Shown: positions 9,965 through 22,853 of the stretch, piece after piece | How the letters are laid out: each line of letters starts with the position of its first letter | Numbering within the stretch: position 1 is the first letter of the stretch | Source: Synergistaceae bacterium | Lineage (GTDB): Bacteria > Synergistota > Synergistia > Synergistales > Aminobacteriaceae | DNA: 53,602 bases | Assembly: GCA_017540085.1 (NCBI GenBank) | Contig: JAFYBQ010000009.1 | Span: 1-53,602 of the forward strand | Direction of reading: 5' to 3' | The notes under the pieces: generated by a model | The model's database searches: none | Told to the model about the DNA's origin: nothing | What the model saw: the letters and a program-made list of their open reading frames with translations, nothing else | Translations under genes and position numbers: made by a program

Positions 9965-10516
9965 ATGGTCGGCTTCATACTGGTCAACATCATCGGACTC
10001 ATTGCCGCGGCCTTCATGCTGTATTTCCCGTACACGTGGTGCAGGTGGAAAAATGAGCCTGAAGAATCTTACGGCCTGAAATGGTTTCTCACGCGCCGGG
10101 CAAAAATTGACGTGATAACCGCGCTGGCTGTTACGCTGATTCCGTTGACGGTGATTGTCATGTATATGCCTGTGAGCTGGGGAGGGGGACTCAAGACTCC
10201 GCCGTTCTGGGACGCTCTGAACATTCTCGGAGGAGGAATCGCCGCGGCATTCATTGAGGAGACATTTTTCCGGGGATGGCTTCAGACTCTGGCGGTGCGG
10301 AAATTCGGAGCTTTCGCGGGAATCATAATAGCTACGGCGGTATTTGCGGCTGTACACTTAATCGCGGTTCAGAAAATCATACGGCTTCTGACATTTTTCC
10401 CCGGCTTAATCATGGCACTTTTGCGGCACAGGAACGCCTCTGTAATGCCGGGGATAATCTATCATGCTGTCTGCAACGTCTGGGCGGTATGGTTCTCGCC
10501 GCTGCCGGGGGTTTAG
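9965..10516 (+). CDS. CPBP-family intramembrane glutamic metalloprotease (CAAX/Abi type)
   Basis: This 183-aa polytopic protein carries the three CPBP motifs: EETFFRG (about 99-105), FAAVHL (about 127) and HAVCN (near the C terminus, about 168), which supply the Glu/His/Asn set of this family. Members cleave within membranes in prenyl-protein maturation, bacteriocin immunity and peptide or envelope processing. It sits in a three-gene unit with a small membrane protein upstream and a secreted protein downstream, both within 4 bases. The partner could be a substrate, but that is inference. Confidence 0.85.
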   Translation: MVGFILVNIIGLIAAAFMLYFPYTWCRWKNEPEESYGLKWFLTRRAKIDVITALAVTLIPLTVIVMYMPVSWGGGLKTPPFWDALNILGGGIAAAFIEETFFRGWLQTLAVRKFGAFAGIIIATAVFAAVHLIAVQKIIRLLTFFPGLIMALLRHRNASVMPGIIYHAVCNVWAVWFSPLPGV

Positions 10517-10519
10517 GCC

Positions 10520-11560
10520 ATGAGGAAAATATTTCTCACACTGATATTTCTGCTGGCGGTCTCGGAGTCGTGGGCGGAAAATCTCATTGAGCTTAGGCTC
10601 CCGTGTATTGTCGGCGAAAACGTTACGGCAAAATTGCCCGGGGGCAATGTGATTCCGTTAGGGCGCGTGAAAATGATTCCGTCAAAAACAAACTGGCCCG
10701 CTTACACCGCAAGCAGGTGGGCGAGTCCGTCAACCGTATGCGCGACTGCCGTCAACGCGATTCACATTCTTGTCCGCGCCGAGAATGACAGAGGAAGAAT
10801 CATCAGCCTTGTTCCGTCAGTAACGGTAGCTCCCGCGGCGGCTCCGGGGGCGTTTTTCGCGCTTGACATGGACGCGGGTACGGGGATATTCGGAGGGTTC
10901 GCGCCTCTCACAGGGTCAGGGGTTACGGTTGAGCATGACGGGATCGAGTCTCTGCTGACTGATACGCCTAGGGAGGGCGATATTCTGATTATACGTTCGC
11001 CCCTGCCTGAGAGACTCCCATACTACATGGCCGATTTCGAGAACAGGCCGGGCGGAAGGGTAATCGCTTACGGGGCAGACGGGCCTAAAGTTATCGCGAG
11101 GGTGATACGCCCCGTGAAGGGAGTCGGGCGTTTCGGAGGGAGCATATATCAGAACCGGGGAAGGATTCGGGCTTCACATTCGGGTGTGATATGCGTCGCG
11201 ACATCCCCGCGTGATTCTGTCGGAGGGATTCAGATTATGCCGCTGAAGCACGCGCTGACCTCGCCGGAAATGCTCAACGCCTGGAAGCTGACTCAGTGGA
11301 TGATTGTCGCGCCCCTGCCGGGAATGCCTGATCTTGAGGGGACTGCGCCACTGTTCAAGAATGCCTTTGTCCCCGGAGCGCAGTTATCGGACAGACTGCC
11401 GGACTTGTGGAGTCATTACGGGAGAAGGCCGCTCGTGCTGTGCAGGGTTGACGGGGGAAACTGGGAACGCCTGCCGGAAATTTCCGGGAAGGTTGATGAC
11501 GGGCTGAAGAGAGTCACGCACCTGAGATTGTATTTTCCGCTGTGGAGTTTGCCGCAATAA
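10520..11560 (+). CDS. Secreted protein of unknown function
   Basis: This 346-aa protein starts with a typical signal peptide (IFLTLIFLLAVSESWAE, cleavage near residue 20). The rest is Gly/Pro/Arg-rich, predicted mostly beta, with no transmembrane segment and no catalytic motif I recognise. ATG is 4 bases after the protease stop, consistent with translational coupling. Its 3' end overlaps the convergent WYL regulator gene by 47 bases, which is unusual and may create antisense effects between the two operons. Function unknown. Confidence 0.75.
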   Translation: MRKIFLTLIFLLAVSESWAENLIELRLPCIVGENVTAKLPGGNVIPLGRVKMIPSKTNWPAYTASRWASPSTVCATAVNAIHILVRAENDRGRIISLVPSVTVAPAAAPGAFFALDMDAGTGIFGGFAPLTGSGVTVEHDGIESLLTDTPREGDILIIRSPLPERLPYYMADFENRPGGRVIAYGADGPKVIARVIRPVKGVGRFGGSIYQNRGRIRASHSGVICVATSPRDSVGGIQIMPLKHALTSPEMLNAWKLTQWMIVAPLPGMPDLEGTAPLFKNAFVPGAQLSDRLPDLWSHYGRRPLVLCRVDGGNWERLPEISGKVDDGLKRVTHLRLYFPLWSLPQ

Positions 11561-12527
11561 CTTTCCGGGCTAAGTCGCATACCATTTCGCGCAGTTCATC
11601 CGGGGCTTTGACCGTTATCCCGGGGGAACATGACAGTATCCACCTTGCGGCCTCCTCAAGATCTGGGATTGTCGCAGTAAGCTCTATAGTGTCATCATTG
11701 AGGCGCGTTATTCTCTGCGTGGGATGGCGTTTCATTTCGCTGACGATTGAGGCCATCGGCTCGCGGATTTCGAGTCTTATCGTGTGCCGGAGCTGTCCGC
11801 CTTTCACGTACCATGAAGACTGCCTGAAGATTTCCGGGCTGTAGTCATCAGGAGGTGGGATAAATTTCCCGTCATCAGGGATAATTATCCTCTCAATTCT
11901 CGACAGCCTGAAGGTCAGAATCCTTTCTCCGTCCCCGGCGGCCATGTACCACGAGTGAGCCTTGAAGAACATATCGTAGGGGGAAATTCTGTGAGTCTTC
12001 ACCTTCCTGTCTCCGTACGGCGAAATGTAGTCTATCTCTATCGCTTCATGCTCGTGTATCGCCTCTAATACCGTCTCAAAGACCCACGGCTTTATGCCTG
12101 AAACAGGGTGCTGAATTGTCGTAAGTCCGGCTAGAATCTCGCCCAGCTCCACAAAACTGTCCGGGACAATCTCCGCGATTTTGTGCCATAATTCCCTGCA
12201 GTGACTCTTGAAGTCAGGCACGAAATGACTCGCCATTCCCAAGCCTATGCACAGTGCTGAAATGTCGTTCATGTTCAGACTCAGCGACATAAGGAACTCG
12301 CCTTCATACGTCATGCAGTAACGCCGTGGATAATCGCGCCTGAATGTGATTCCGGCTTTGTACTCGTCCCGCAGTAACCGTATATCATCCTGAAGAGCGC
12401 GCCGCCCGGAGTATTCGCAGTGTGTGATGAGGTCTGAGACTTCCGCGCCTGCCTCACCCTTTTTGCGGAGGTATGCCGCCAGTTTCAGGAGCCGCCGTAT
12501 TCTTACGGACGAAATTTCGCGACCCAT
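11514..12527 (-). CDS. WYL-domain transcriptional regulator (HTH-WYL-WCX)
   Basis: This 337-aa regulator has a DeoR-like winged HTH (about residues 5-75, including SGRRALQDDIRLLRDEY), a WYL domain (about 140-215, with IDYISPYGDR and HSWYMAAGDGERILTFRLSRIERI) and a C-terminal WCX extension (about 240-325, with HPTQRIT, RWILS and ITVKAPDELREMV). WYL regulators bind ligands or nucleic acid and control defence or stress loci. It is the last gene of the long minus-strand cassette; its start touches the stop of the LRAT-like gene. The HTH resembles the HTH-only protein at 17585 at the cassette head. Confidence 0.9.
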   Translation of the reverse strand: MGREISSVRIRRLLKLAAYLRKKGEAGAEVSDLITHCEYSGRRALQDDIRLLRDEYKAGITFRRDYPRRYCMTYEGEFLMSLSLNMNDISALCIGLGMASHFVPDFKSHCRELWHKIAEIVPDSFVELGEILAGLTTIQHPVSGIKPWVFETVLEAIHEHEAIEIDYISPYGDRKVKTHRISPYDMFFKAHSWYMAAGDGERILTFRLSRIERIIIPDDGKFIPPPDDYSPEIFRQSSWYVKGGQLRHTIRLEIREPMASIVSEMKRHPTQRITRLNDDTIELTATIPDLEEAARWILSCSPGITVKAPDELREMVCDLARKVIAANSTAENTISGA

Positions 12528-12991
12528 CAGCCGAAAAAGCGGGCGACAATGTCAAGAATCCTGTCGACCTGCGTGGAGTCCTTAACGCCTGTCTTGCACC
12601 ACACCGCGAAATGCTCGCAGTTGTTCAGCGCAAGATTGTAGCCGCCCTCGCCGAGTTTGCTTCTTGCGCGTCTCACGGTCTCTTCTCCGCTGTAAAGGTG
12701 GTAATCCATCATCTTTATGACGCGGATTAACTGTAGAATTTTGGCGAGTCCCTTAACGCCGGGGATTACGGGAAAATTATTCGGGTGTTCGGGAAAGTTG
12801 CAGACGCTGAAATCCTCTGAGCCGTTCAGGAACTCCGCTAATGTCGTCTCGCGCACAATGCCGTTGAAGTCGTCCGGGCCTGTCGCGCCTGTGTAGTGAA
12901 TGACGCGGCCGGGGTCAGCGTAGACTCCGTAGTGGGAATATAGTCCCCTATTCACGCGGAGAACATCGCCGTTTTTTGGACTGGGTTTCAT
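12527..12991 (-). CDS. LRAT/NC-domain (NlpC/P60-superfamily) protein
   Basis: About 154 aa. An N-terminal DVLRVNRGLYSHYGVYAD gives the catalytic-type His box, and a later NLALNNCEHFAVWC gives the NCEHF nucleophile motif of the lecithin-retinol-acyltransferase-like branch of NlpC/P60 thiol enzymes. Members act as acyltransferases, phospholipases or peptidases. The ATG at 12991 forms an ATGA overlap with the stop of the upstream gene and is preferred over an ATG 21 bases further upstream. There is no signal peptide, so it is cytosolic. A role in peptide acylation or cleavage is possible but unproven. Confidence 0.75.
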   Translation of the reverse strand: MKPSPKNGDVLRVNRGLYSHYGVYADPGRVIHYTGATGPDDFNGIVRETTLAEFLNGSEDFSVCNFPEHPNNFPVIPGVKGLAKILQLIRVIKMMDYHLYSGEETVRRARSKLGEGGYNLALNNCEHFAVWCKTGVKDSTQVDRILDIVARFFG

Positions 12992-13533
12992 TTGCCGATC
13001 ATCTCCCCGCATGAATTGAGCAGGAATTTCACTACGTCATCGAGAGTCATATTGTCAGTACAGACATGAATCAGGCCGGGAAGTTTCATGTAAACATCCT
13101 GCGCTTTCTTCTGCCCGTCAAAATCGCGGTCAAGAGCTGAGATGATTCCCCCTTTGCTTTTGCGGTCTGACATTCTTTCGCGTCTTGTGTCATCGCTGGC
13201 GCAGAGGAGGAAACTTCTGTCCGGCTTCCTGAGTCCCTCGAAATATCCGAAAATGTCATCAGGGATTTCACGGTCAAAAGGCCAGTTGTATGCGAGCGTT
13301 GAATGAATATACCTATCGCAGACTATATCATATTTTCCGGCCATGTCCGAGACGTAATAGCATGATGACAGATAATAGTGATACGCTGAATATTTGTTGG
13401 CGGCGGCGAATTTCCTCACGGGCATATATTCAGGGCCTGGGGTTGACGCAAATTTGAATCCGAGAGAGTCGGCGAGAATTTTTGCCGCGGAGCTTTTCCC
13501 GGTTCCGTCAGTGCCTTCAAGAGTGATTAGCAT
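12988..13533 (-). CDS. Thymidylate-kinase-like P-loop kinase
   Basis: This 181-aa protein begins with MLITLEGTDGTGKSS, a Walker A motif of the dTMP-kinase type, and contains YDIVCDRYIHSTLAY, which matches the DR[YF] substrate-binding motif, plus a charged lid segment (about 115-125). It is shorter than typical Tmk (about 205-215 aa), and the usual downstream dTMP-binding and lid residues are not obvious. It may phosphorylate something other than dTMP. It is translationally coupled to both neighbours (2-base gap upstream, 4-base overlap downstream) within the radical SAM cassette. Confidence 0.75.
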   Translation of the reverse strand: MLITLEGTDGTGKSSAAKILADSLGFKFASTPGPEYMPVRKFAAANKYSAYHYYLSSCYYVSDMAGKYDIVCDRYIHSTLAYNWPFDREIPDDIFGYFEGLRKPDRSFLLCASDDTRRERMSDRKSKGGIISALDRDFDGQKKAQDVYMKLPGLIHVCTDNMTLDDVVKFLLNSCGEMIGK

Positions 13534-13534
13534 T

Positions 13535-14011
13535 CTACAACACTTCCTCCACTGTGCAGCGCATAATTTTTGACGTGCGAAATTCTACGGTATCGCCCTT
13601 TTTCCTTCCCGCAAGAACTTTCCCTAACGGACTCTGCGGAGTTATGGCCGTGTATTTCCTGCCCTCGTGGACGACTGAGACTCCCGCCGCGCCTTTCGCG
13701 TCAAGCAGTATATAGCCGTTATGCGCTCCGTTCTGTTTAAGGATGATGATTGAGCCGTTAGCGATAATTTCGCCGCCTGTCCGTGAAATTTCCGCCTCAA
13801 GAAGGGATAATGCTTTCTCCATTTCGTTATGGCTCTTCTTCATTTCCGAGAGCTGCCACTGTCCTTCAACTAATGCGCTGTCGTAACGGCTCTGCATTGG
13901 GCCGGGCTGATCTGCAAGATATTCCTTCTGCATTTCGATACCCTCATTTGAGGACGATATATTTTCCTTCAGCTTATTGATTAAAAGTCCGAGTATTGTT
14001 TTTCTGTCCAA
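13535..14011 (-). CDS. GreA/GreB-like protein
   Basis: 158 aa, the usual GreA length. Residues 1-75 form a charged helical hairpin. The C-terminal part has ITPQSPLGKVLAGRKKGDTVEF, the standard GreA/GreB FKBP-like domain signature. True Gre factors rescue backtracked RNA polymerase through an acidic pair at the coiled-coil tip. Here the tip region reads ADQPGPMQSRYD and lacks the usual acidic S-x-E-x-(G)D-R-S-E pattern, so cleavage-stimulating activity is doubtful. Its position between a radical SAM and a kinase gene suggests a cassette-specific role. Confidence 0.75.
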   Translation of the reverse strand: MDRKTILGLLINKLKENISSSNEGIEMQKEYLADQPGPMQSRYDSALVEGQWQLSEMKKSHNEMEKALSLLEAEISRTGGEIIANGSIIILKQNGAHNGYILLDAKGAAGVSVVHEGRKYTAITPQSPLGKVLAGRKKGDTVEFRTSKIMRCTVEEVL

Positions 14012-14018
14012 GGTAAAA

Positions 14019-14822
14019 TTATCTCCTGTTCATTAAGTCTGCTATATGCTCCAATATATTATCATGCCCCGCTTCCAAGAAACTCCCTGTATCATCGAAC
14101 GGGCATAAAGTGATTCTTCCGTCAGGGTATACCCACACAGAACGGCATGAAGGGCAGCCTGTAGGGTGAGGGATTCGGCATTCGCGGCACATTTCGAGGC
14201 CGGGATTTTTCGCGCTCTCAATTTCTACACGCGTGTCGTCCCTGAAAATTTCGGCGAATCCAAGAAATTCGCGGTAATATTCCTCGTCCGCTGTCATGTC
14301 ATTCATGAGCTTGATTATTATCCCGTGAGGCAATAGAGCTTCGGCCATGCGCCTTATTGAGTCTGGATTCTGCCGTGCGAAAACGGTGTTGATCTTCACG
14401 CGGAGGCCATGCCCGGCAGCTTTTACGGCACTGTGAATTATGTCCGCGGGGCTGTATTCTGATGACGTGAGGCGTGAATATTCTTCCGGGACGAATGAAG
14501 GCACAGAGATATTCAGGGAGTCTGTGAGGGAGTAAAACTCTTCAGGCTGAAGGGGGAGCATAGATCCGTTTGTGGTGATTGCGTTAGTGAGTCCGAGGGA
14601 TTTTGACAGCCTCATGATGTCCAGAAGGTGAGGGAAGATTAGCGGCTCTCCGCCAGTGTAAGCGACTTTTTCCCCGCCGAGCGAGGCAAAAACTTTCACG
14701 CATTCTTTCAGGAAGCCGGGGGGAATATCTCTATTCCGGCACCTGTTGAAGTCATGGGAGCAGAACACACAGCGGTAATTGCACCTGTCAGATAATACGA
14801 GCCTGAGATTGTATTTGCTCAT
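14019..14822 (-). CDS. Radical SAM enzyme with C-terminal auxiliary Cys cluster (second in cassette)
   Basis: 267 aa. The radical SAM motif CNYRCVFC gives Cys14, Cys18 and Cys21, and GGEP lies at 57-60. The C-terminal region has Cys212, 215, 223, 226 and 240 around SVWVYPDGRITLC, a twitch/SPASM-like arrangement able to hold an auxiliary Fe-S cluster. Such enzymes install crosslinks or epimerise residues in ribosomal peptides. It is directly downstream of three small peptides and a PqqD-like gene, which supports peptide modification. MoaA-like sequence character is evident, but no molybdopterin genes are nearby. Confidence 0.85.
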   Translation of the reverse strand: MSKYNLRLVLSDRCNYRCVFCSHDFNRCRNRDIPPGFLKECVKVFASLGGEKVAYTGGEPLIFPHLLDIMRLSKSLGLTNAITTNGSMLPLQPEEFYSLTDSLNISVPSFVPEEYSRLTSSEYSPADIIHSAVKAAGHGLRVKINTVFARQNPDSIRRMAEALLPHGIIIKLMNDMTADEEYYREFLGFAEIFRDDTRVEIESAKNPGLEMCRECRIPHPTGCPSCRSVWVYPDGRITLCPFDDTGSFLEAGHDNILEHIADLMNRR

Positions 14823-14891
14823 AGTGAGTCATCCTTTCGGGAACGAACTGCCCCGGCTTTTCGGGCTGAGGCAGAAATATATTCCGTTCGG

Positions 14892-15107
14892 TCAGTCGAG
14901 GCAGGGTTCGAGCGCGCCTCCGGCAGAAGCTATGTCCGTAACTGCGAGCGCTATTGATGAAACTATTGATGAAAACGGTTTCGGGTCAGGGTCAGGCTTA
15001 AGCATTGCATTAATTGCCTGGACAACGGTGAACGCTATGCTGTAGCTGTTCCCCGTCCTGCGACCTGTAACAGTCGGCGAACGATATTCCTTCATGTATT
15101 CCTTCAT
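14892..15107 (-). CDS. Putative RiPP precursor peptide 3
   Basis: 71 aa. The N terminus has a duplicated MKEY followed by RSPTVTG, which contains the Y-x-x-P-x-V motif shared by all three small peptides here. The middle is hydrophobic with a PDPDPKP interruption. The C terminus is GGALEPCLD, which contains the only cysteine. The first ATG follows AGGGGG by 7 bases; the second in-frame ATG follows AAGGA, so either may be used. The C-terminal coding sequence is nearly identical in DNA to that of peptide 2. Assignment rests on shared motifs and the PqqD/radical SAM context. Confidence 0.75.
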   Translation of the reverse strand: MKEYMKEYRSPTVTGRRTGNSYSIAFTVVQAINAMLKPDPDPKPFSSIVSSIALAVTDIASAGGALEPCLD

Positions 15108-15119
15108 GGCCGTGTCCCC

Positions 15120-15320
15120 CTAGTCGAGGCAGGGTTCTAGTGCGGGAAGTCCCCCTGCAACGCTTTTGTCCCCTGATTTTGAGGTCAGCAGAGCCGCCGC
15201 AACGCCCCCCGCAAATGCCGCCGCAACTTTCGCCATCGTAACGCCCGCAATCAATGCCGCCGGGAACGCAAAGCCGCCTTCAGCCCCTCCCGTAACTGAC
15301 GGTGTAATGTACTCTTTCAT
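15120..15320 (-). CDS. Putative RiPP precursor peptide 2
   Basis: 66 aa. It starts MKEYITPSVTGG (leader motif Y-x-x-P-x-V), has an Ala/Gly-rich hydrophobic core (about 17-47) and ends GLPALEPCLD with a single Cys. The ATG at 15320 is well spaced behind AAAGGAGC and forms an ATGA overlap with the end of the PqqD-like gene, so it is preferred over a longer form starting 42 bases upstream. The long helical hydrophobic core resembles bacteriocin-like peptides, but no known family is recognised. Confidence 0.8.
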   Translation of the reverse strand: MKEYITPSVTGGAEGGFAFPAALIAGVTMAKVAAAFAGGVAAALLTSKSGDKSVAGGLPALEPCLD

Positions 15321-15619
15321 GATGATATTGCTCCTTTCTTCAGACGTATTAATTTCTTCCATTGCATATCGCGTATGAAACTCACTATATCGCGTTCGAG
15401 GGTCTCGCGGTCAACTTCATACTCACCGAGAATTTCAGCGCAAAGCCCTTCAATCGTCATATTGCCGTCAAGAATATTCCACATTTCCCGCGCCGTTCCG
15501 TTGAGGTAATATATCTCGCTGTTACGGTTCGAGGCTATGAGAAATTCGCCTTCATTGCGAGTCTTCAAGGCACTGTGAACGGGGATATAATCCTTCAGGA
15601 AATCATATGCCGCTGTCAT
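15317..15619 (-). CDS. PqqD-family RiPP recognition protein
   Basis: 100 aa with the PqqD pattern: GEFLIASNRNSEIYYLNGTAREMWNILDG, then an acidic helix and a D-x-V-S-F-x-R-D-M-Q-W helix. PqqD-like proteins (RiPP recognition elements) bind the leader peptide and present it to the radical SAM enzyme. The Y-x-x-P leader motif in the three neighbouring peptides is like the one bound by such elements in lasso-peptide systems. The gene lies between peptide 1 and peptide 2, 4 bases from one stop and overlapping the other start. No PQQ genes are present. Confidence 0.88.
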   Translation of the reverse strand: MTAAYDFLKDYIPVHSALKTRNEGEFLIASNRNSEIYYLNGTAREMWNILDGNMTIEGLCAEILGEYEVDRETLERDIVSFIRDMQWKKLIRLKKGAISS

Positions 15620-15623
15620 TGCC

Positions 15624-15809
15624 TTACTCCATTACGCACTCAGGCACACGCAAGTCAGACGAAAAAATCCGGTGTGCGTCCATAGCGTTTTTCACAGCCT
15701 TTGCGATTGCATAGCCTCCCACCATCGCAAGCCCTACAGCAAGAGGCACAACCCTTCCCCCGGCGGTCTCTGCTATATTTGTTACTTCCGGCTTCCTGTA
15801 CTCCCTCAA
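15624..15809 (-). CDS. Putative RiPP precursor peptide 1
   Basis: 61 aa from a TTG start 10 bases behind AGGAGG. It begins MREYRKPEVTN (Y-x-x-P-x-V), has a Gly-Gly at residues 17-18 and a hydrophobic helix-like stretch (VPLAVGLAMVGGYAIAKAV), and ends DLRVPECVME with the only Cys. It lies 18 bases after the first radical SAM gene and is the most divergent of the three peptides at its C terminus (PEC rather than EPC). Confidence 0.75.
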   Translation of the reverse strand: MREYRKPEVTNIAETAGGRVVPLAVGLAMVGGYAIAKAVKNAMDAHRIFSSDLRVPECVME

Positions 15810-15827
15810 GATATATATTCCTCCTCT

Positions 15828-16874
15828 CTATAATCTCACGTCAGCGTCAGAATAATTCCTCAGCCCGTGATTGATTTCCTCCTCATCCTCCCATGAGGCT
15901 ACATACTTCAATACTTCCGGCCTCGTCCAAGCGTCATGGGCTTTGGCATTCCACACGTCAAAAAAATCATCCTCAATCACATTCCCGATGACGAACGGCG
16001 CAACGCAGTCCAGCCTTATATCACCGTTCGGGCGGATAATCGCTCCCGTGTTGGGCGTACTCATGTCCCGCAGAAGCTGTATCTTTGTCCCGGAGCTTCT
16101 CTGTACCGACATTCTCCCGGCGTATTTCTGCGTGTTGACGCTGACGGCCTCGCCGAGAATATTGCGCTGTTCCCGCGTCATCATGATTTCGGGATTGAGC
16201 CAGCTCCGTCCGCTTGGCATGACCTCGCCCAGAATTATCCCGGACGCGCCTAACTCGTAGGCAAGCTCGCACATTGAGTCGACCTCGTGAAGGTTCGCGG
16301 GGGTTACTGTGTGGGCTATCGTTACGGGGATTCCCAGATTCGTCAGCATGAAGACGGCCTCCACTGCCTTGTCCCAGCTTCCCGCCCTCTGCCTGAAGTC
16401 ATCATGCCTTTCACGTGTAACTCCGTCTATTGAGACCTGAAACCACTTCCAGCGGTATTTTGTGAAACGCCTGGCCTTTTCCTGAGTCATCAATAAGCCG
16501 TTGGAGATTACGAGAAATGATGTCCCGTCATCGTGAAGGATGTCCATAATTCCGAAAAGGTCATCGCCCAATAACAGCGGCTCGCCTCCCGATATAACGC
16601 ACTGGAATATCCCGCCGTGATTCACGATGTAGCGGGCAAAATCCTTCCAGCGTTCCGGGGTCATTGGGTCATGGCCGGAATTGTCTTCCCCGGAAACGTT
16701 GTAGCAGTGCTTGCAGTGAACATTGCAGTGCGCGGTAAGCTCAAACTGAAGCGTCAAAGGCATCGTGAATCTCTCAGGGTAAAGATGATTCGCGACAAGG
16801 TTACGGATATTTTCGGCCTCGTCATTTGCGGCTTTCCTGTCCCTGACGAAATTAATTTTTGCCCAGTCTCTCAA
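15828..16874 (-). CDS. Radical SAM/SPASM-type peptide-modifying enzyme (first in cassette)
   Basis: 348 aa. CNVHCKHC gives Cys50, 54 and 57 for the SAM-binding Fe-S cluster; GGEP lies at 96-99. The C terminus follows the SPASM layout (IRPNGDIRLDCVAPFVIGNV...VWNAK), but only Cys291 remains of the usual cluster cysteines, so an auxiliary cluster is doubtful. Family members modify ribosomally made peptides and usually need a PqqD-like partner, which is encoded downstream. The start overlaps the stop of the YkgJ-like gene by 4 bases. Having two different radical SAM enzymes suggests two distinct modification steps. Confidence 0.88.
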   Translation of the reverse strand: MRDWAKINFVRDRKAANDEAENIRNLVANHLYPERFTMPLTLQFELTAHCNVHCKHCYNVSGEDNSGHDPMTPERWKDFARYIVNHGGIFQCVISGGEPLLLGDDLFGIMDILHDDGTSFLVISNGLLMTQEKARRFTKYRWKWFQVSIDGVTRERHDDFRQRAGSWDKAVEAVFMLTNLGIPVTIAHTVTPANLHEVDSMCELAYELGASGIILGEVMPSGRSWLNPEIMMTREQRNILGEAVSVNTQKYAGRMSVQRSSGTKIQLLRDMSTPNTGAIIRPNGDIRLDCVAPFVIGNVIEDDFFDVWNAKAHDAWTRPEVLKYVASWEDEEEINHGLRNYSDADVRL

Positions 16875-17143
16875 ATTTCATCACTCCTGATCTTTTCGCA
16901 GTATTCATTGAGTAGAGCGTCAAATTCCCCGCGTGTCATTGTGTCCTTGAGGCATTCGGCGTAATAGCGCTCGTTGTCGCAGATTATCGGCCTTCTGTCG
17001 TAGATGGAGCAGAGGCGGGACTCACGGTCGAAATACCTGCATGTCCCGTCCCCGCTGTCGAGAGTCCTGCGCTCCCGGCTGTCCTCCGGGAAAAACCTGA
17101 AGCACTCGCAGCACTTTCCGCACTTCCGGCAATGGAACGCCAT
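16871..17143 (-). CDS. YkgJ-family cysteine-cluster protein
   Basis: 90 aa. The N terminus CRKCGKCCECF and later CRYF, LCSIYDRRPIIC and C-x14-C match the YkgJ/UPF0153 Zn- or Fe-S-binding Cys pattern (C-x2-C-x2-CC ... C-x(n)-C). The family function is unknown; members often sit beside radical SAM or redox genes. Its start abuts the YkvA stop and its stop overlaps the radical SAM gene, so it is translated within the cassette. It could supply or protect metal centres for the radical SAM enzymes, but this is only inferred. Confidence 0.8.
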   Translation of the reverse strand: MAFHCRKCGKCCECFRFFPEDSRERRTLDSGDGTCRYFDRESRLCSIYDRRPIICDNERYYAECLKDTMTRGEFDALLNEYCEKIRSDEI

Positions 17144-17532
17144 CAGTCGAGGCCGTCCGATGTTCCCGGGCCAAATATGCTGTCTATCATTTCCCGCGCC
17201 TGCCGTTTGACCTCATCATTGACATACATCTGCGCCATAATCAGAGCCGCCGCAATCGCCGCTAAGTCATCAGTGAATCCCACGAACGGAATAAAGTCCG
17301 GGATTATGTCAATCGGCGAAATGAAGTAGCCCAGTGTCGCCACTATTGCCGCCTTTATGTGAATAGGGCAGTCGGGACGCTTCATGACGTAGTAAAGCTG
17401 AATGGCCTTGTAGATTAACGGAAGCCCCGCGGCCTTGAGGACTCCTTTCACCTTGTCCCAGAAAGAGTCGTCCGAGTAATCTTTCTGATATTTCGGGTCA
17501 ATATCTTCAACGCTCCGTATTTCCTTGCTCAT
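17143..17532 (-). CDS. YkvA/DUF1232 membrane-associated protein
   Basis: 129 aa with the DUF1232 core (IKAAIVATLGYFISPIDIIPDFIPFVGFTDDLAAIA), one or two hydrophobic segments, and a long N-terminal charged helix. Function is unknown. It is the first gene of the operon that contains the RiPP peptides; ATG follows TTAAGGAGGTAG. A promoter with the shared 18-bp element and -10 TAGAAT lies directly upstream (17561-17601). Confidence 0.85.
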   Translation of the reverse strand: MSKEIRSVEDIDPKYQKDYSDDSFWDKVKGVLKAAGLPLIYKAIQLYYVMKRPDCPIHIKAAIVATLGYFISPIDIIPDFIPFVGFTDDLAAIAAALIMAQMYVNDEVKRQAREMIDSIFGPGTSDGLD

Positions 17533-17560: not shown

Positions 17561-17601
17561 ATTCTACAAGGGCATAACGACACCTTAGGCGTGTTTTGCT
17601 C
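17561..17601 (-). promoter_or_regulatory. Regulated promoter of the RiPP operon (18-bp element copy 2)
   Basis: Read on the minus strand: GAGCAAAACACGCCTAAG (17601-17584), a 17-base spacer, then -10 TAGAAT (17566-17561). The element covers the -35 position, which has no TTGACA-like hexamer, as expected for an activator-dependent promoter. It overlaps the stop codon of the HTH-only gene. Copies with identical spacing occur at 17862-17902 and 19371-19411. Confidence 0.7.
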
Positions 17602-17836
17602 CGGCGAGAATGTATTTCCCGGTATCCTCAAGATGATATGCCATGTTCCTGCGGCTGAAGCGGATTTTTGCGCCGAACGACTCGCGCAGGAAACGTATAT
17701 CGCTCTCAAGCGTCCGGCCTGACACGTAAGCGCACTCAGCCATGAGAGCCTCGCGGGAAATGTAGTCCTCCGATTTCAGGACTCCAAGAAGACGGTTGAG
17801 CCTCTCGATTCGTAATGATGACATTGATTTTGACAC
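17585..17836 (-). CDS. HTH-only WYL-family regulator
   Basis: 83 aa. SSLRIERLNRLLGVLKSEDYISREALMAEC then SGRTLESDIRFLRESFG is a winged HTH like that of the full-length WYL regulator at 11514, but the protein stops after the wing and has no WYL or WCX domain. It is the first minus-strand gene of the region. GTG at 17836 overlaps AAAGGAGG-type spacing; an in-frame ATG lies nearby. Its promoter and that of the RiPP operon share the same 18-bp element, so it is the leading candidate to bind that element. It does not look like a decayed longer gene. Confidence 0.75.
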   Translation of the reverse strand: MSKSMSSLRIERLNRLLGVLKSEDYISREALMAECAYVSGRTLESDIRFLRESFGAKIRFSRRNMAYHLEDTGKYILAGAKHA

Positions 17837-19454: not shown

Positions 19455-20900
19455 GTGAAATTTCTGCGTGTACTGGCGTTAATTGCGCTGTTGTTTCTGC
19501 TGACGGGAAATTTGTCGGCAGCTGAAATTGACCTCAGCAAAATTCCGATGTCCCGGACAAAATTAGACTTCCTCACGCTGTACAAAACACAGTGGGAGCT
19601 TTTCGGCCTTCCCGGAAAACTGAAGCGGGCTGTTGAGGAGGCATTCACCGAGCAGACAGAAAATCTCATGTGGGGTACTATGAGGGCGCAGCTTGTCTCG
19701 AATTACGACAACATTCAGGAGAAGATTCAGCAGGCGGCGGAGTACAAATTCGCGGCGGATTACGACAAATTTCTGTCCGAGCTTGAAGACAACTGGGGCG
19801 AAAAGCTGAGATCTAACATTATGGACTTCTACAAGCGGCAGAACGAGTCTATGTATTTCGAGCTTTCCTCCAATCCGATGGCGCAGGCATTCCTCCGGCA
19901 GGATTACGACCGAATAACGGAGGACAACGGGAAATCGGTGATGGCTCGCATATCGTCTGAGCTTTCCGGGAAATATGGCACGTTCACGGTTTCAGGGGCG
20001 GGGATAATCGGAGGCGGGCTTATGGTTCTGGCACGCAAGCAGCTGCAAAAACAAATCGTGAAAATTGCAGGGCGGAAATTGGCCGGGTCTGCGCTGGGAA
20101 AAGCGGTGGGGGCTGCCGTTCCCGTAATCGGATGGGCTATGCTGGCCTGGTCTGCGTGGGATATGTATTCCATGCTCGCGGACGCTGAAGACACAATCAG
20201 GACAAAAATTTTCGAGTCCTACAACGCCATGTACTCTGAAGAAGTGCCGTTAGTGTACTGGGACGGAATAGAGTCTTACGTCCGGGACACGTATATATTC
20301 GCCTATAACTCACTTTCCGAAAGCATTGAGAAAGGTCTGGCAGTGTCAGAAAACGCAAAATTCAAGCTACTGACGCAGGGTCTGAAGAAACCGAAAGAAA
20401 GAATTTTCACAAACAGAATCGCGGACATTCTGCAAATAGTCGACAAGAAAAATTACACGCTTGATGACATTCTCACACAGCACGGCGAATTTATACGCGA
20501 CTCAAAGCAGGAAGATTTCGAGGACTTCGCGGCCATGCTGATAAAGTCAGAGGAGCTTCTCACAAAACGCGCCGTCCGTATCAATGAATTGTCGCGGGGC
20601 CTCCAAGAATCAGAGCGGAATTTGTTTGCCGACAAAATAGCAAGAGTCGAGGAAGTTGTCGCGGAAGGGAAAAATTATACCGTTGATGACGTTCTCACAC
20701 GTTACGGCAAATTTATACTCGGCACAAGCAACAGGGAGTTTGACAGGTTCGAGGAAGTACTGTATGAGTCAGACACGCTCCCTGAACATTACCCGCCCGA
20801 AACAGCCCCCGTAGTATCACGCGACATCACAAGCCCGGACATCAAGCCGGACTCACCGTCAGCAACACCAAAAACATTCCGCATACACGAAGGACATTAG
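19455..20900 (+). CDS. Secreted protein with Gly/Ala-rich hydrophobic segment, paralogue 1
   Basis: 481 aa from a GTG behind GAAGGGG. A signal peptide (VLALIALLFLLTGNLSAAE) is followed by a helical region (LTLYKTQWELFG...MWGTM...FYKR), a Gly/Ala-rich hydrophobic stretch (about 175-240, including GKAVGAAVPVIGWAMLAWSAWDMY), and a helical C-terminal part containing two internal repeats (NRIADILQIVDKKNYTLDDIL and DKIARVEEVVAEGKNYTVDDVL). There is no C-terminal anchor. It shares extensive similarity with the next gene. I do not recognise the family. It is in the 18-bp-element regulon. Confidence 0.75.
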   Translation: MKFLRVLALIALLFLLTGNLSAAEIDLSKIPMSRTKLDFLTLYKTQWELFGLPGKLKRAVEEAFTEQTENLMWGTMRAQLVSNYDNIQEKIQQAAEYKFAADYDKFLSELEDNWGEKLRSNIMDFYKRQNESMYFELSSNPMAQAFLRQDYDRITEDNGKSVMARISSELSGKYGTFTVSGAGIIGGGLMVLARKQLQKQIVKIAGRKLAGSALGKAVGAAVPVIGWAMLAWSAWDMYSMLADAEDTIRTKIFESYNAMYSEEVPLVYWDGIESYVRDTYIFAYNSLSESIEKGLAVSENAKFKLLTQGLKKPKERIFTNRIADILQIVDKKNYTLDDILTQHGEFIRDSKQEDFEDFAAMLIKSEELLTKRAVRINELSRGLQESERNLFADKIARVEEVVAEGKNYTVDDVLTRYGKFILGTSNREFDRFEEVLYESDTLPEHYPPETAPVVSRDITSPDIKPDSPSATPKTFRIHEGH

Positions 20901-20912
20901 GAGGAAAAATTC

Positions 20913-22853
20913 ATGCGTAAAATCACCACGCTGTTCATAGTTATGGCTCTCTGCGCTGTCTCATGGGCAGATGACAACATCATGAGGACAGAGACAGAGA
21001 GAAACGCCGACATTGACCGGGCAATAAATGAGATAGGGAATGTTCCTGAAGTTGACCGGGTGAATTTCCGGGACGGCCTCAAGAAAAGCCGGGCTAACTT
21101 CCTCAGATTATACCGCGCAAGGTGGCAGGCTCTCGGAATGAATGACAAGCTCGAAAAGGCCATTGACCGCGCATTTCAGGACAAAACCGGCGGAATGCTC
21201 TGGGGGACTAAGGGACTCAGGCTCGGCGCGAATATCGGCAACATCGTCAATGACATTCAGGAGGCCACGGCGTTCAATTTTGCCGAGACGTATGACGATT
21301 TCCTGCGTGATGTCGAGGACAAATGGGGCGAGTCATTGCAGGGGGATTTGTCTGACTTCTACAAGCGCGCAAGCATCATGCTCATAGCCGCCGACAGAAA
21401 TCCGATGATGAGGGCATATATCCGCCAGAGCACAGCCGCCCAAGACAGCGGAGAAAGAATCCTCGACGAAATCAGCGACACCCTCACCGCAAAATATCCC
21501 GACCTCAAAATCACAGGTGCCACAGCCGCCGCAGGAATCTCTCTGCTTTTCCGCAAACAGCTCGTGAAGTATCTCGCCAAATACGCGGGGAAGGCTACTG
21601 TATTCAAGAAGGTTGCCGCAAGTGCCGCCGGGAAATTAATCGGTAAGACTCTCCCCCTTGTAGGGCCGGTAATGCTCGCATGGTCTCTGTATGATGTAGC
21701 CTCTATCGCCTGGAACGCTGAAGAAGACGTGCGGAGAATGCTCACCGAGCGCAACATGAACATGTATTCACGCGAAATGCCAGCGGTGTATTGGGACGTT
21801 ATGGAGCCATATGTGATGGATGTCTTTGTGTCGTCTTACGGAATGCTTCAGACTGCAAGAAAGAACGCTGAAACTTTTGCGAATGACTCACGTGTTCAGG
21901 CTCTCAGCGCGGGACTCAGCGATACGGAGGCTATGCAGTTTGCTGAAAGAATATCGGCGGCGGTTGAGATTCTCGGCCATGATAAATATGATTACGTCAT
22001 CGGGAATTTCGGCGAAAGAATCCGCGAGTCCTCACCTCAGAATTTCCGCAGGCTAATGCAGGTTCTACAGCAGGAAAACACAGAGCAGGCTGTCGAATGG
22101 CTGAAACTTGCCGGGACTCAGTATTACGACTTCTACGCGCTGTTCCCCCGCGATGTGTGGGAGAAATTCCAGCCCGATTCGCAGTCCCTCGAAATATTGT
22201 CGTGGATGTCAAAGCGTCTCACACCCTCAGCGCGTAATACAGCGTCAAAACTTTCGGTGAATGATATTCTCTTTGTGATGAATGATTTGCCGGAGCGATA
22301 TTTGTCTCAGCTTTTCGGCGACAGAAGCAAAGACCCGGAGGCGGTGCATTATGAGATTGAGAGGCTGCGAGATTTGCCGGAGGACTCCCGCGTTCCGTGG
22401 ATGTCGGAATGGCAGTACATGTTCGCGAAATACAAGATATATATCATCATGGCCGGGGCGTTAGTGTTCATTGCGCTTCTGGCGAGGATATTAATACCTT
22501 TGTTCAGGGGACGGACTCAGGCACTTCCGCAAGCCTCACAGCCCGTGATAATCTCAATGCCCCCTCAGCCCGCACAGCCCGTTGTCATCAAGAAATACGA
22601 GGTCAAACTCATCATATCCCCTGAATTTGTCGCGGAAGCCCGTAAATCTCAGTGGGACATATCGCAGACATTAATCCCGGCGGATGACGGAAGCGGAAAT
22701 TACGTTTTCAGCGCGGAGCTTGAGAGCCTCGACACTATTTCGCGCTGGGTAAGTCGGCACAGAGAAAGTATTACGGTTATACAGCCGGAAGAACTCAAAT
22801 ATACAGCTATCACAGCTAAAAACATTGCGGGTAATGTTAATTCCCAACGATAA
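20913..22853 (+). CDS. Paralogue 2: signal-anchored membrane protein with C-terminal WCX domain
   Basis: 646 aa. Signal peptide (TLFIVMALCAVSWAD), a region homologous to paralogue 1 (FLRLYRARWQALG...MLWGTKGLRLG...LPLVGPVMLAWSLYD), and a transmembrane helix at about 509-531. A Pro/Gln-rich linker and an 87-residue C-terminal domain (560-646) follow the WCX pattern: SQTL, DDGSG, AELESLDTISRWVS, ITVIQPEELKY. WCX normally follows WYL in regulators. ATG follows TAGGAGG, 12 bases after paralogue 1. The last codons run into tnpB-derived sequence, so the natural C terminus may be slightly altered by the insertion. Confidence 0.75.
   Translation: MRKITTLFIVMALCAVSWADDNIMRTETERNADIDRAINEIGNVPEVDRVNFRDGLKKSRANFLRLYRARWQALGMNDKLEKAIDRAFQDKTGGMLWGTKGLRLGANIGNIVNDIQEATAFNFAETYDDFLRDVEDKWGESLQGDLSDFYKRASIMLIAADRNPMMRAYIRQSTAAQDSGERILDEISDTLTAKYPDLKITGATAAAGISLLFRKQLVKYLAKYAGKATVFKKVAASAAGKLIGKTLPLVGPVMLAWSLYDVASIAWNAEEDVRRMLTERNMNMYSREMPAVYWDVMEPYVMDVFVSSYGMLQTARKNAETFANDSRVQALSAGLSDTEAMQFAERISAAVEILGHDKYDYVIGNFGERIRESSPQNFRRLMQVLQQENTEQAVEWLKLAGTQYYDFYALFPRDVWEKFQPDSQSLEILSWMSKRLTPSARNTASKLSVNDILFVMNDLPERYLSQLFGDRSKDPEAVHYEIERLRDLPEDSRVPWMSEWQYMFAKYKIYIIMAGALVFIALLARILIPLFRGRTQALPQASQPVIISMPPQPAQPVVIKKYEVKLIISPEFVAEARKSQWDISQTLIPADDGSGNYVFSAELESLDTISRWVSRHRESITVIQPEELKYTAITAKNIAGNVNSQR

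Follow-up and report, generated by a model that had tools for sequence, protein, structure and literature searches.

The recognition elements of lasso peptide, LPP and PQQ-type biosynthesis have a known leader motif, [Y/W]xxPx[L/V/I/F/A] (PMC13381572, PMC12710340), and in the LPP protein LppB the residues N33 and D70 hold the proline kink and the tyrosine of YxxP, with mutation of these residues impairing binding (PMC13381572). Amongst radical S-adenosylmethionine (SAM) enzymes, epimerases and sactisynthases share abstraction of a Cα hydrogen; the proteusin epimerases possess only the radical SAM cluster together with a single strictly conserved catalytic cysteine, and known crosslinkers carry auxiliary clusters within the enzyme (PMC8326336). 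Here we analyse a locus from a Synergistaceae species, a gut or rumen bacterium, on a 53,602-nucleotide contig (JAFYBQ010000009.1, the whole of which is referred to below as the window). The locus encodes a stand-alone PqqD-type recognition element for ribosomally synthesised and post-translationally modified peptides (RiPPs), two radical SAM enzymes and three short candidate precursor peptides. We interpret it as a radical SAM RiPP cassette that depends on this RiPP recognition element (RRE) and operates in the stepwise manner set out below, and put the probability of this interpretation at about 0.5. The recognition chemistry is known; the peptide family and its modification appear to be undescribed.

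All of the cassette genes lie on the minus strand and are given here in order of transcription. The first encodes a 90 amino acid YkgJ-like protein of the CxxCxxCC family (16871-17143; PF03692, 26.4 bits against a cut-off of 23) and overlaps by 4 nt, in ATGA fashion, the gene for the radical SAM enzyme rSAM1 (15828-16874; PF04055, E=3.9e-24), which has a TTG start and a degenerate SPASM/twitch C-terminal domain. There follow the genes for precursor peptide 1 (15624-15809; 61 amino acids from a TTG start behind GAGGAGG, with a YRKPEV leader and the core VPLAV...GGYAIAK), the PqqD-type RRE (15317-15619; PF05402, E=1.9e-15), precursor peptide 2 (15120-15320; 66 amino acids, with a YITPSV leader, an FPAA... 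Ala/Gly-rich core and an LEPCLD tail) and precursor peptide 3 (14892-15107; 71 amino acids, with a YRSPTV leader and an LEPCLD tail). The peptide 2 and PqqD genes overlap, again in ATGA fashion, and a 69-bp gap separates peptide 3 from the gene encoding the second radical SAM enzyme, rSAM2. Promoter and terminator predictions in the window were not clearly commoner than in shuffled sequence. All the open reading frames (ORFs) named in an initial annotation of this DNA are present, and ORF positions and Pfam matches bear out its description of three small ORFs with a YxxPxV leader, interleaved with PqqD and two different radical SAM enzymes and running on through GreA-like, kinase-like and LRAT genes joined by short overlaps. 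The cassette that it placed at 12527-16874 is real, but that range missed the conserved YkgJ gene just outside it.

The conserved unit is made up of YkgJ, rSAM1, PqqD and several short hydrophobic peptides. PqqD relatives occur in 10 of the 43 genomes of the genus (the window included) and in one other Synergistaceae genus, and in none of the remaining genomes of the 188 searched in the phylum. With the exception of a locus cut by a contig end (L015), every PqqD relative in the phylum has rSAM1 beside it; all have YxxP peptides beside them, and the YkgJ gene is found at all Synergistota PqqD loci but the contig-cut L015 and L019. A scan with the rSAM1 alignment identified the same YkgJ–rSAM1–PqqD–peptide unit in rumen Selenomonadaceae and in one Planctomycetia metagenome-assembled genome. 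PqqD was detected in 26 of 189 Selenomonadaceae genomes searched (~23 with strong scores), and of 20 loci read from these genomes, 18 contain a PqqD that matches the reference set, each of them together with rSAM1 and motif peptides; rSAM1 is cut by the contig end in loci L212 and L213. Clustering of 17 loci by blastp recovered three proteins that accompany the cassette everywhere, namely PqqD (17/17), rSAM1 (16/17) and YkgJ (15/17). The initial annotation had made its interpretation hinge on whether the peptides are conserved beside PqqD and radical SAM genes in relatives, and this they are: the peptides occur beside these genes in over 30 loci spanning three phyla. In trees the loci group according to taxonomy, G010, Planctomycetia and Blautia sitting on long branches, and we therefore make no claim as to the direction of transfer. 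A phage or plasmid origin was rejected, as no close relatives were found in phage, plasmid and viral-contig collections.

Some more distant loci resemble the cassette in part. In Blautia sp. MSJ-9 (L031, 6455-8930), an rSAM1-like gene (45%) lies behind a second radical SAM/SPASM gene, along with a 60 amino acid Cys-rich candidate precursor. This looks like a different RiPP cluster and, given the lack of PqqD, the Cys-rich candidate peptide and the second radical SAM gene, it was rejected as a family member and kept as an outgroup. The Selenomonadaceae loci L219 (3141-5222) and L220, from genomes G248 and G270, encode divergent relatives of rSAM1 (35-37%) together with a remote match to PqqD and are possibly a sister system; L219 has a further radical SAM gene directly upstream of its rSAM1 relative.

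The best solved relative of the PqqD-type protein is the lasso peptide RRE TbiB1 (5v1u/5v1v, E=5.9e-7), with a PqqD family protein (9x8z) and PqqD being the other nearest. We take 9x8z to be the LPP RRE LppB. The window protein aligns to it without gaps, N40 and D77 falling on an Asn and an Asp with spacing that fits N33 and D70 of LppB, and K19, N40, G52, D77 and Q86 are invariant in 35/35 proteins. The lasso (TbiB1, FusE/FusB1 and PbaB1) and LPP (LppB) systems have the same YxxPx[V/I/L] leader and a discrete PqqD-fold RRE, and the Asn/Asp pair appears to be that of LppB. As the motif matches the known recognition sequence and N40 and D77 are invariant, the leader motif, which the initial annotation did not recognise, is therefore not new but of the lasso/LPP/PQQ type (PMC13381572, PMC12710340). 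Judged from sequence, leader recognition by PqqD of this known type is strongly supported. In contrast to the lasso and LPP systems, however, the cassette has a radical SAM enzyme and hydrophobic helical cores, with no conserved LPP-type leader peptidase, and neither a B2 transglutaminase-like peptidase nor an asparagine-synthetase-like cyclase was found among the cassette genes scanned or recurring in the flanks of the 17 loci.

A stand-alone PqqD-type protein accompanied by a radical SAM enzyme is likewise seen in GeoRSP, SynChlorMet, PqqD/PqqE and mycofactocin systems. Nevertheless, rSAM1 and PqqD fall far below every curated NCBIfam equivalog cut-off for GeoRSP, SynChlorMet, mycofactocin and PQQ; for GeoRSP the scores are 86 against 400 bits for the radical SAM enzyme and 31 against 100 bits for PqqD. 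None of the peptides matches a Pfam, NCBIfam or PHROGs model above cut-off, and no curated model or description of them was found in open-licence PMC papers, such that an earlier description elsewhere is possible. The proposal that this is a radical SAM/PqqD RiPP cassette with several precursors, belonging to no curated family, is thus upheld. Features general to RRE-dependent RiPP loci are present: an RRE/PqqD domain lies beside a modifying enzyme in a linkage kept across phyla, and short precursors with a conserved leader motif lie beside the enzymes.

In the peptides, the leader motif YxxPx[V/I/L] falls within residues 3-15; behind it come a hydrophobic-P-[A/L/V] element, then a hydrophobic stretch rich in Ala and Gly, and lastly a polar tail. 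The Y and P of YxxP are present in every peptide compared, with L017a having Met at the last motif position, and the hydrophobic stretch has a best 19-residue Kyte–Doolittle mean of mostly 1.3-2.2 (some lower) and many small-xxx-small spacings. At most loci an orthologue of peptide 1 is encoded immediately before PqqD. Y4, P7 and G32 are invariant across 14 such peptides from two phyla, and there is a recurrent GYAAGK motif whose Tyr is lost in L017, L024 and L030. The largest precursor set seen, in Selenomonadaceae locus L204 (4105-5787), comprises six motif peptides, one with a very long Ala/Gly run. On its own the motif Y..P.[LVI] is not rare, occurring in ~1.5 small ORFs per shuffled window, and the evidence for the peptides is therefore comparative. 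Within the genus, a peptide profile matches each of the 10 PqqD-positive genomes and, save for one weak partial match (E=0.077), none of the 33 PqqD-negative ones, the matches in positive genomes arising partly by construction and the absence elsewhere being the informative part. Peptide dN/dS is ~0.16-0.28 over the pairs tested, indicating purifying selection; for the closest pair the values are ~0.16 (peptide 1) and ~0.17 (peptide 2), compared with 0.06 for PqqD. Three tandem YxxP ORFs beside PqqD, conserved in relatives and under selection, are not due to chance.

The tails vary by lineage, with LEPC(L/I/M/V)x in most of the genus, LEPV or LEPI in L019-L021, LEPIY in G010 and [T/A]RKxF-like sequences in many Selenomonadaceae. 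The LEP tails of L019-L021 have no Cys, nor does the C-terminus of the G010 peptides, and Cys is likewise missing from almost every Selenomonadaceae and Planctomycetia tail, although L020 has a terminal Cys elsewhere. The single C-terminal Cys, proposed in the initial annotation as a signature, is a lineage-specific and not a family feature, and thioether chemistry is therefore not the general reaction.

The CX3CX2C motif of rSAM1 (C50/C54/C57) is invariant in 34 sequences; apart from these three, C290 alone is a conserved Cys (33/34), C92 being present in 26/34. The SPASM match is below the Pfam cut-off. SkfB is both the best fold match to the AlphaFold2 model of rSAM1 (pLDDT 90.8; Z 27.9, rmsd 3.2 over 287 residues) and its best sequence match, with SuiB (Z 23.9) and the epimerase EpeE (Z 19.5) scoring lower and ChlB and PqqE also amongst the next matches. 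SkfB and other SPASM/twitch sactisynthases are the closest described enzymes, but rSAM1 has no fused N-terminal RRE, its auxiliary-cluster Cys residues are lost and the core Cys of its presumed substrates is not conserved. A single Cys (C290) cannot ligate a cluster, and hence the auxiliary-cluster ligands are lost; with the cluster lost and no conserved core Cys, both requirements of thioether formation are gone. In its sequence pattern, with ligands for the radical SAM cluster only and one further conserved Cys, rSAM1 is like the proteusin epimerases PoyD and OspD (PMC8326336), although the leaders differ from those of the proteusin epimerases and EpeE. This lone Cys makes epimerisation the first choice and crosslinking with YkgJ the second. 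By analogy, we tentatively suggest that rSAM1 may epimerise Cα positions in the Ala/Gly/Val/Ile-rich core, C290 supplying the hydrogen atom.

In an alignment of 14 YkgJ orthologues, C5, C8, C11, C12, C35, C45, C55 and C82 are invariant. A single [4Fe-4S] cluster is bound by FliB (PMC8598068), in which eight Cys are likewise conserved and whose CX4CX3CC resembles the PF03692 motif. YkgJ therefore most likely carries a [4Fe-4S] cluster by analogy and could act as electron donor or trans-acting auxiliary cluster for rSAM1, and the ATGA overlap of the two genes would fit YkgJ being a stoichiometric partner. The YkgJ model is confident (pLDDT 93), yet there was no Foldseek match in the PDB and no sequence match.

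Taken together, these results suggest a model in which the PqqD-type protein would bind the YxxPx[V/I/L] leader of each of the three precursors as a β-strand, in the lasso/LPP manner, and hand the hydrophobic core to a single enzyme, rSAM1. This would abstract a Cα hydrogen, as SkfB does, and might then D/L-epimerise residues of the Ala/Gly/Val/Ile-rich segment, C290 donating the hydrogen, whilst YkgJ, translationally coupled to rSAM1, would supply electrons or act as an auxiliary cluster in trans. The product, speculatively, would be several modified peptides that seek out membranes and act on that of the producer or of a neighbour. Several points weigh against this model. No transporter, exporter or peptidase recurs in the 17 clustered loci, which is unusual for a secreted RiPP. 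EpeE is not the closest fold of rSAM1, scoring well below SkfB. C290 is located at what appears to be a former cluster-ligand position and may be a relic, and it is absent from the Blautia relative, which also has no PqqD. Auxiliary clusters are also missing from radical SAM enzymes that catalyse different reactions.

The same cassette might instead form a C–C or C–heteroatom crosslink (cyclophane- or PQQ-like, with a shift of -2 Da), YkgJ serving as an electron sink in place of the lost auxiliary cluster. The presence of SuiB, ChlB and PqqE amongst the next fold matches is consistent with this, as are the Cys-rich character of YkgJ, its tight coupling to rSAM1 and the recurrent GYAAGK of peptide 1, but the cores contain no invariant pair of residues, even the GYAAGK Tyr being lost in three loci, and known crosslinkers have in-enzyme auxiliary clusters (PMC8326336) where rSAM1 has none; we consider a crosslink unlikely. 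Poorer still are the prospects of a cofactor-like product made in the manner of PQQ or mycofactocin, in which a few residues would be modified, excised and kept in the cell. This would follow the PqqD/PqqE-like logic of the locus, would explain the lack of a conserved exporter and would accord with weak rSAM1 matches to the mycofactocin maturase (90 bits) and PqqE models; however, several divergent precursors per locus with variable tails sit badly with one fixed small molecule, and no peptidase or oxidase partner is conserved. Least probable of all is a sactipeptide-type thioether linking the C-terminal Cys to an upstream residue. That SkfB is the nearest solved relative of rSAM1 and that LEPC is conserved in the peptide 2-type peptides of LRAT-adjacent loci speak for it, but most peptides outside the genus have no Cys and rSAM1 is missing the auxiliary-cluster Cys. 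As the general chemistry of the family it was rejected, there being neither a conserved core Cys nor cluster ligands.

Downstream of the peptides lie rSAM2 (14019-14822), a MoaA/twitch-type radical SAM protein with CX2CX13C in its C-terminal part and a score below the NCBIfam moaA cut-off (99.8 against 284 bits), a GreA/Rnk-like protein (13535-14011; PF01272, 25.6 bits, just below the cut-off of 26.9) and a dTMP-kinase-like P-loop kinase (12988-13533; PF02223, E=1.2e-11). Close orthologues of rSAM2 (>60%) occur only in G053, G061 (frameshifted) and G062 (fragments) out of 83 family genomes, and the kinase-like gene in 3/83. The GreA-like gene accompanies both rSAM2 and the kinase in G053 and in G061. 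Only two genomes have an intact block next to the cassette, namely that of the window and G053, where it occupies a different position, upstream; G061 has lost the core and the WYL regulator and kept the frameshifted rSAM2. The block is a separable accessory: two radical SAM enzymes were rejected as a defining feature, rSAM2 being present in 2/10 cassette loci. It is conceivable, if doubtful, that the block is an independent nucleotide-modifying or viperin-type anti-phage module that merely sits inside the cassette. In keeping with this, rSAM2 is MoaA/viperin-like, the kinase matches the PADLOC PDC-M51B and VakA models, and the block is positioned upstream in G053 and persists in G061 without the core. 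Against it, rSAM2 scores 69.8 bits where the viperin model NF038283 has a cut-off of 180, and the pVip match is unspecific since rSAM1 matches too; viperin-type defence was also rejected for rSAM1 itself, the model matching both enzymes weakly. To our knowledge, the MoaA/twitch-like C-terminal Cys cluster of rSAM2 is not a feature of viperins, which also counts against an independent module. That rSAM2 is broken in both core-less genomes (G061 and G062) hints at functional dependence on the core, though this is seen in no more than two genomes, and the frameshift, coming from a draft assembly, could be an artefact of sequencing.

The boundaries of the cassette are revealed by an empty site. 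In G062 (L170), the genes for YkvA/DUF1232 (window 17143-17532; PF06803, E=2.7e-16) and the LRAT/NC-domain protein (12527-13012; PF04970, E=6.8e-22) are adjacent and without a cassette, the equivalent of window 17149-12974 being missing (17150 joined to 12973), within the order FNT, YkvA, LRAT, hypothetical, CAAX protease. In G046 the cassette precedes YkvA-LRAT and in G027 it lies behind YkvA, with LRAT elsewhere. The YkvA-LRAT junction is an insertion point, both genes being chromosomal backbone and the window cassette cargo between them; in G053, too, the position of the cassette relative to the pair differs. YkvA also adjoins the cassette in four Selenomonadaceae loci (L030 and L203-L205), so a looser functional link is possible. 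LRAT had been counted as part of the system, but it is backbone in most genomes of the genus, many of them cassette-less, and it lies away from the cassette in G027, G029 and G030; for this reason its link to LEPC is one of synteny. The confinement of LEPC to seven LRAT-adjacent loci had resembled covariation, as if LRAT were the S-acyltransferase of the LEPC Cys, but in view of this synteny such a role was dropped.

Beyond LRAT lies a WYL/WCX regulator (11514-12527; PF13280 and PF25583) that accompanies the cassette in a subclade: a WYL regulator is found beside it in L015, L016, L017, L018 and L022, and no intact copy at the cassette-less loci L136, L165 and L170. A truncated WYL-type HTH gene (17585-17836), whose product resembles the WYL N-terminus and has no Pfam match, shows a weak cassette association, recurring in L016, L017, L018 and L022. 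The window cassette, between YkvA and LRAT, would have picked up both the rSAM2-GreA-kinase block and WYL regulators. A CAAX-protease-like membrane protein (9965-10516) and an uncharacterised exported-looking protein (10520-11560) are backbone, being found beside LRAT in cassette-less genomes too. At 19455-22853 there are two adjacent long ORFs with similar N-terminal halves, the second encoding a putative membrane protein with a WCX-like domain (PF25583, E=1.3e-6), an odd place for this domain.

These results add a RiPP family that is unnamed as far as our searches show, with its more than 30 loci mostly in Synergistaceae and rumen Selenomonadaceae, and that offers clear recognition rules and small, easily expressed parts. 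Its unusual points are the lack of a conserved exporter or peptidase and the pairing of a cluster-less SPASM enzyme with YkgJ. This pairing connects the YkgJ (CxxCxxCC) proteins, a family about which little is understood, with an enzyme of the radical SAM type that has lost the auxiliary cluster of its own and makes the disputed role of such clusters directly testable, whilst the combination of several divergent hydrophobic peptides per operon with no exporter raises the question of where the products act. A bolder proposition, which at present we think rather unlikely to be correct, is that this is a widespread RiPP family of anaerobic diderms in which a cluster-less radical SAM enzyme and a YkgJ acting in trans epimerise transmembrane Ala/Gly-rich peptides. 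Were this true, the products would be exporter-less, multi-component D/L membrane peptides, and a defined biochemical function, that of partner to a radical SAM enzyme, could be assigned to the YkgJ family.

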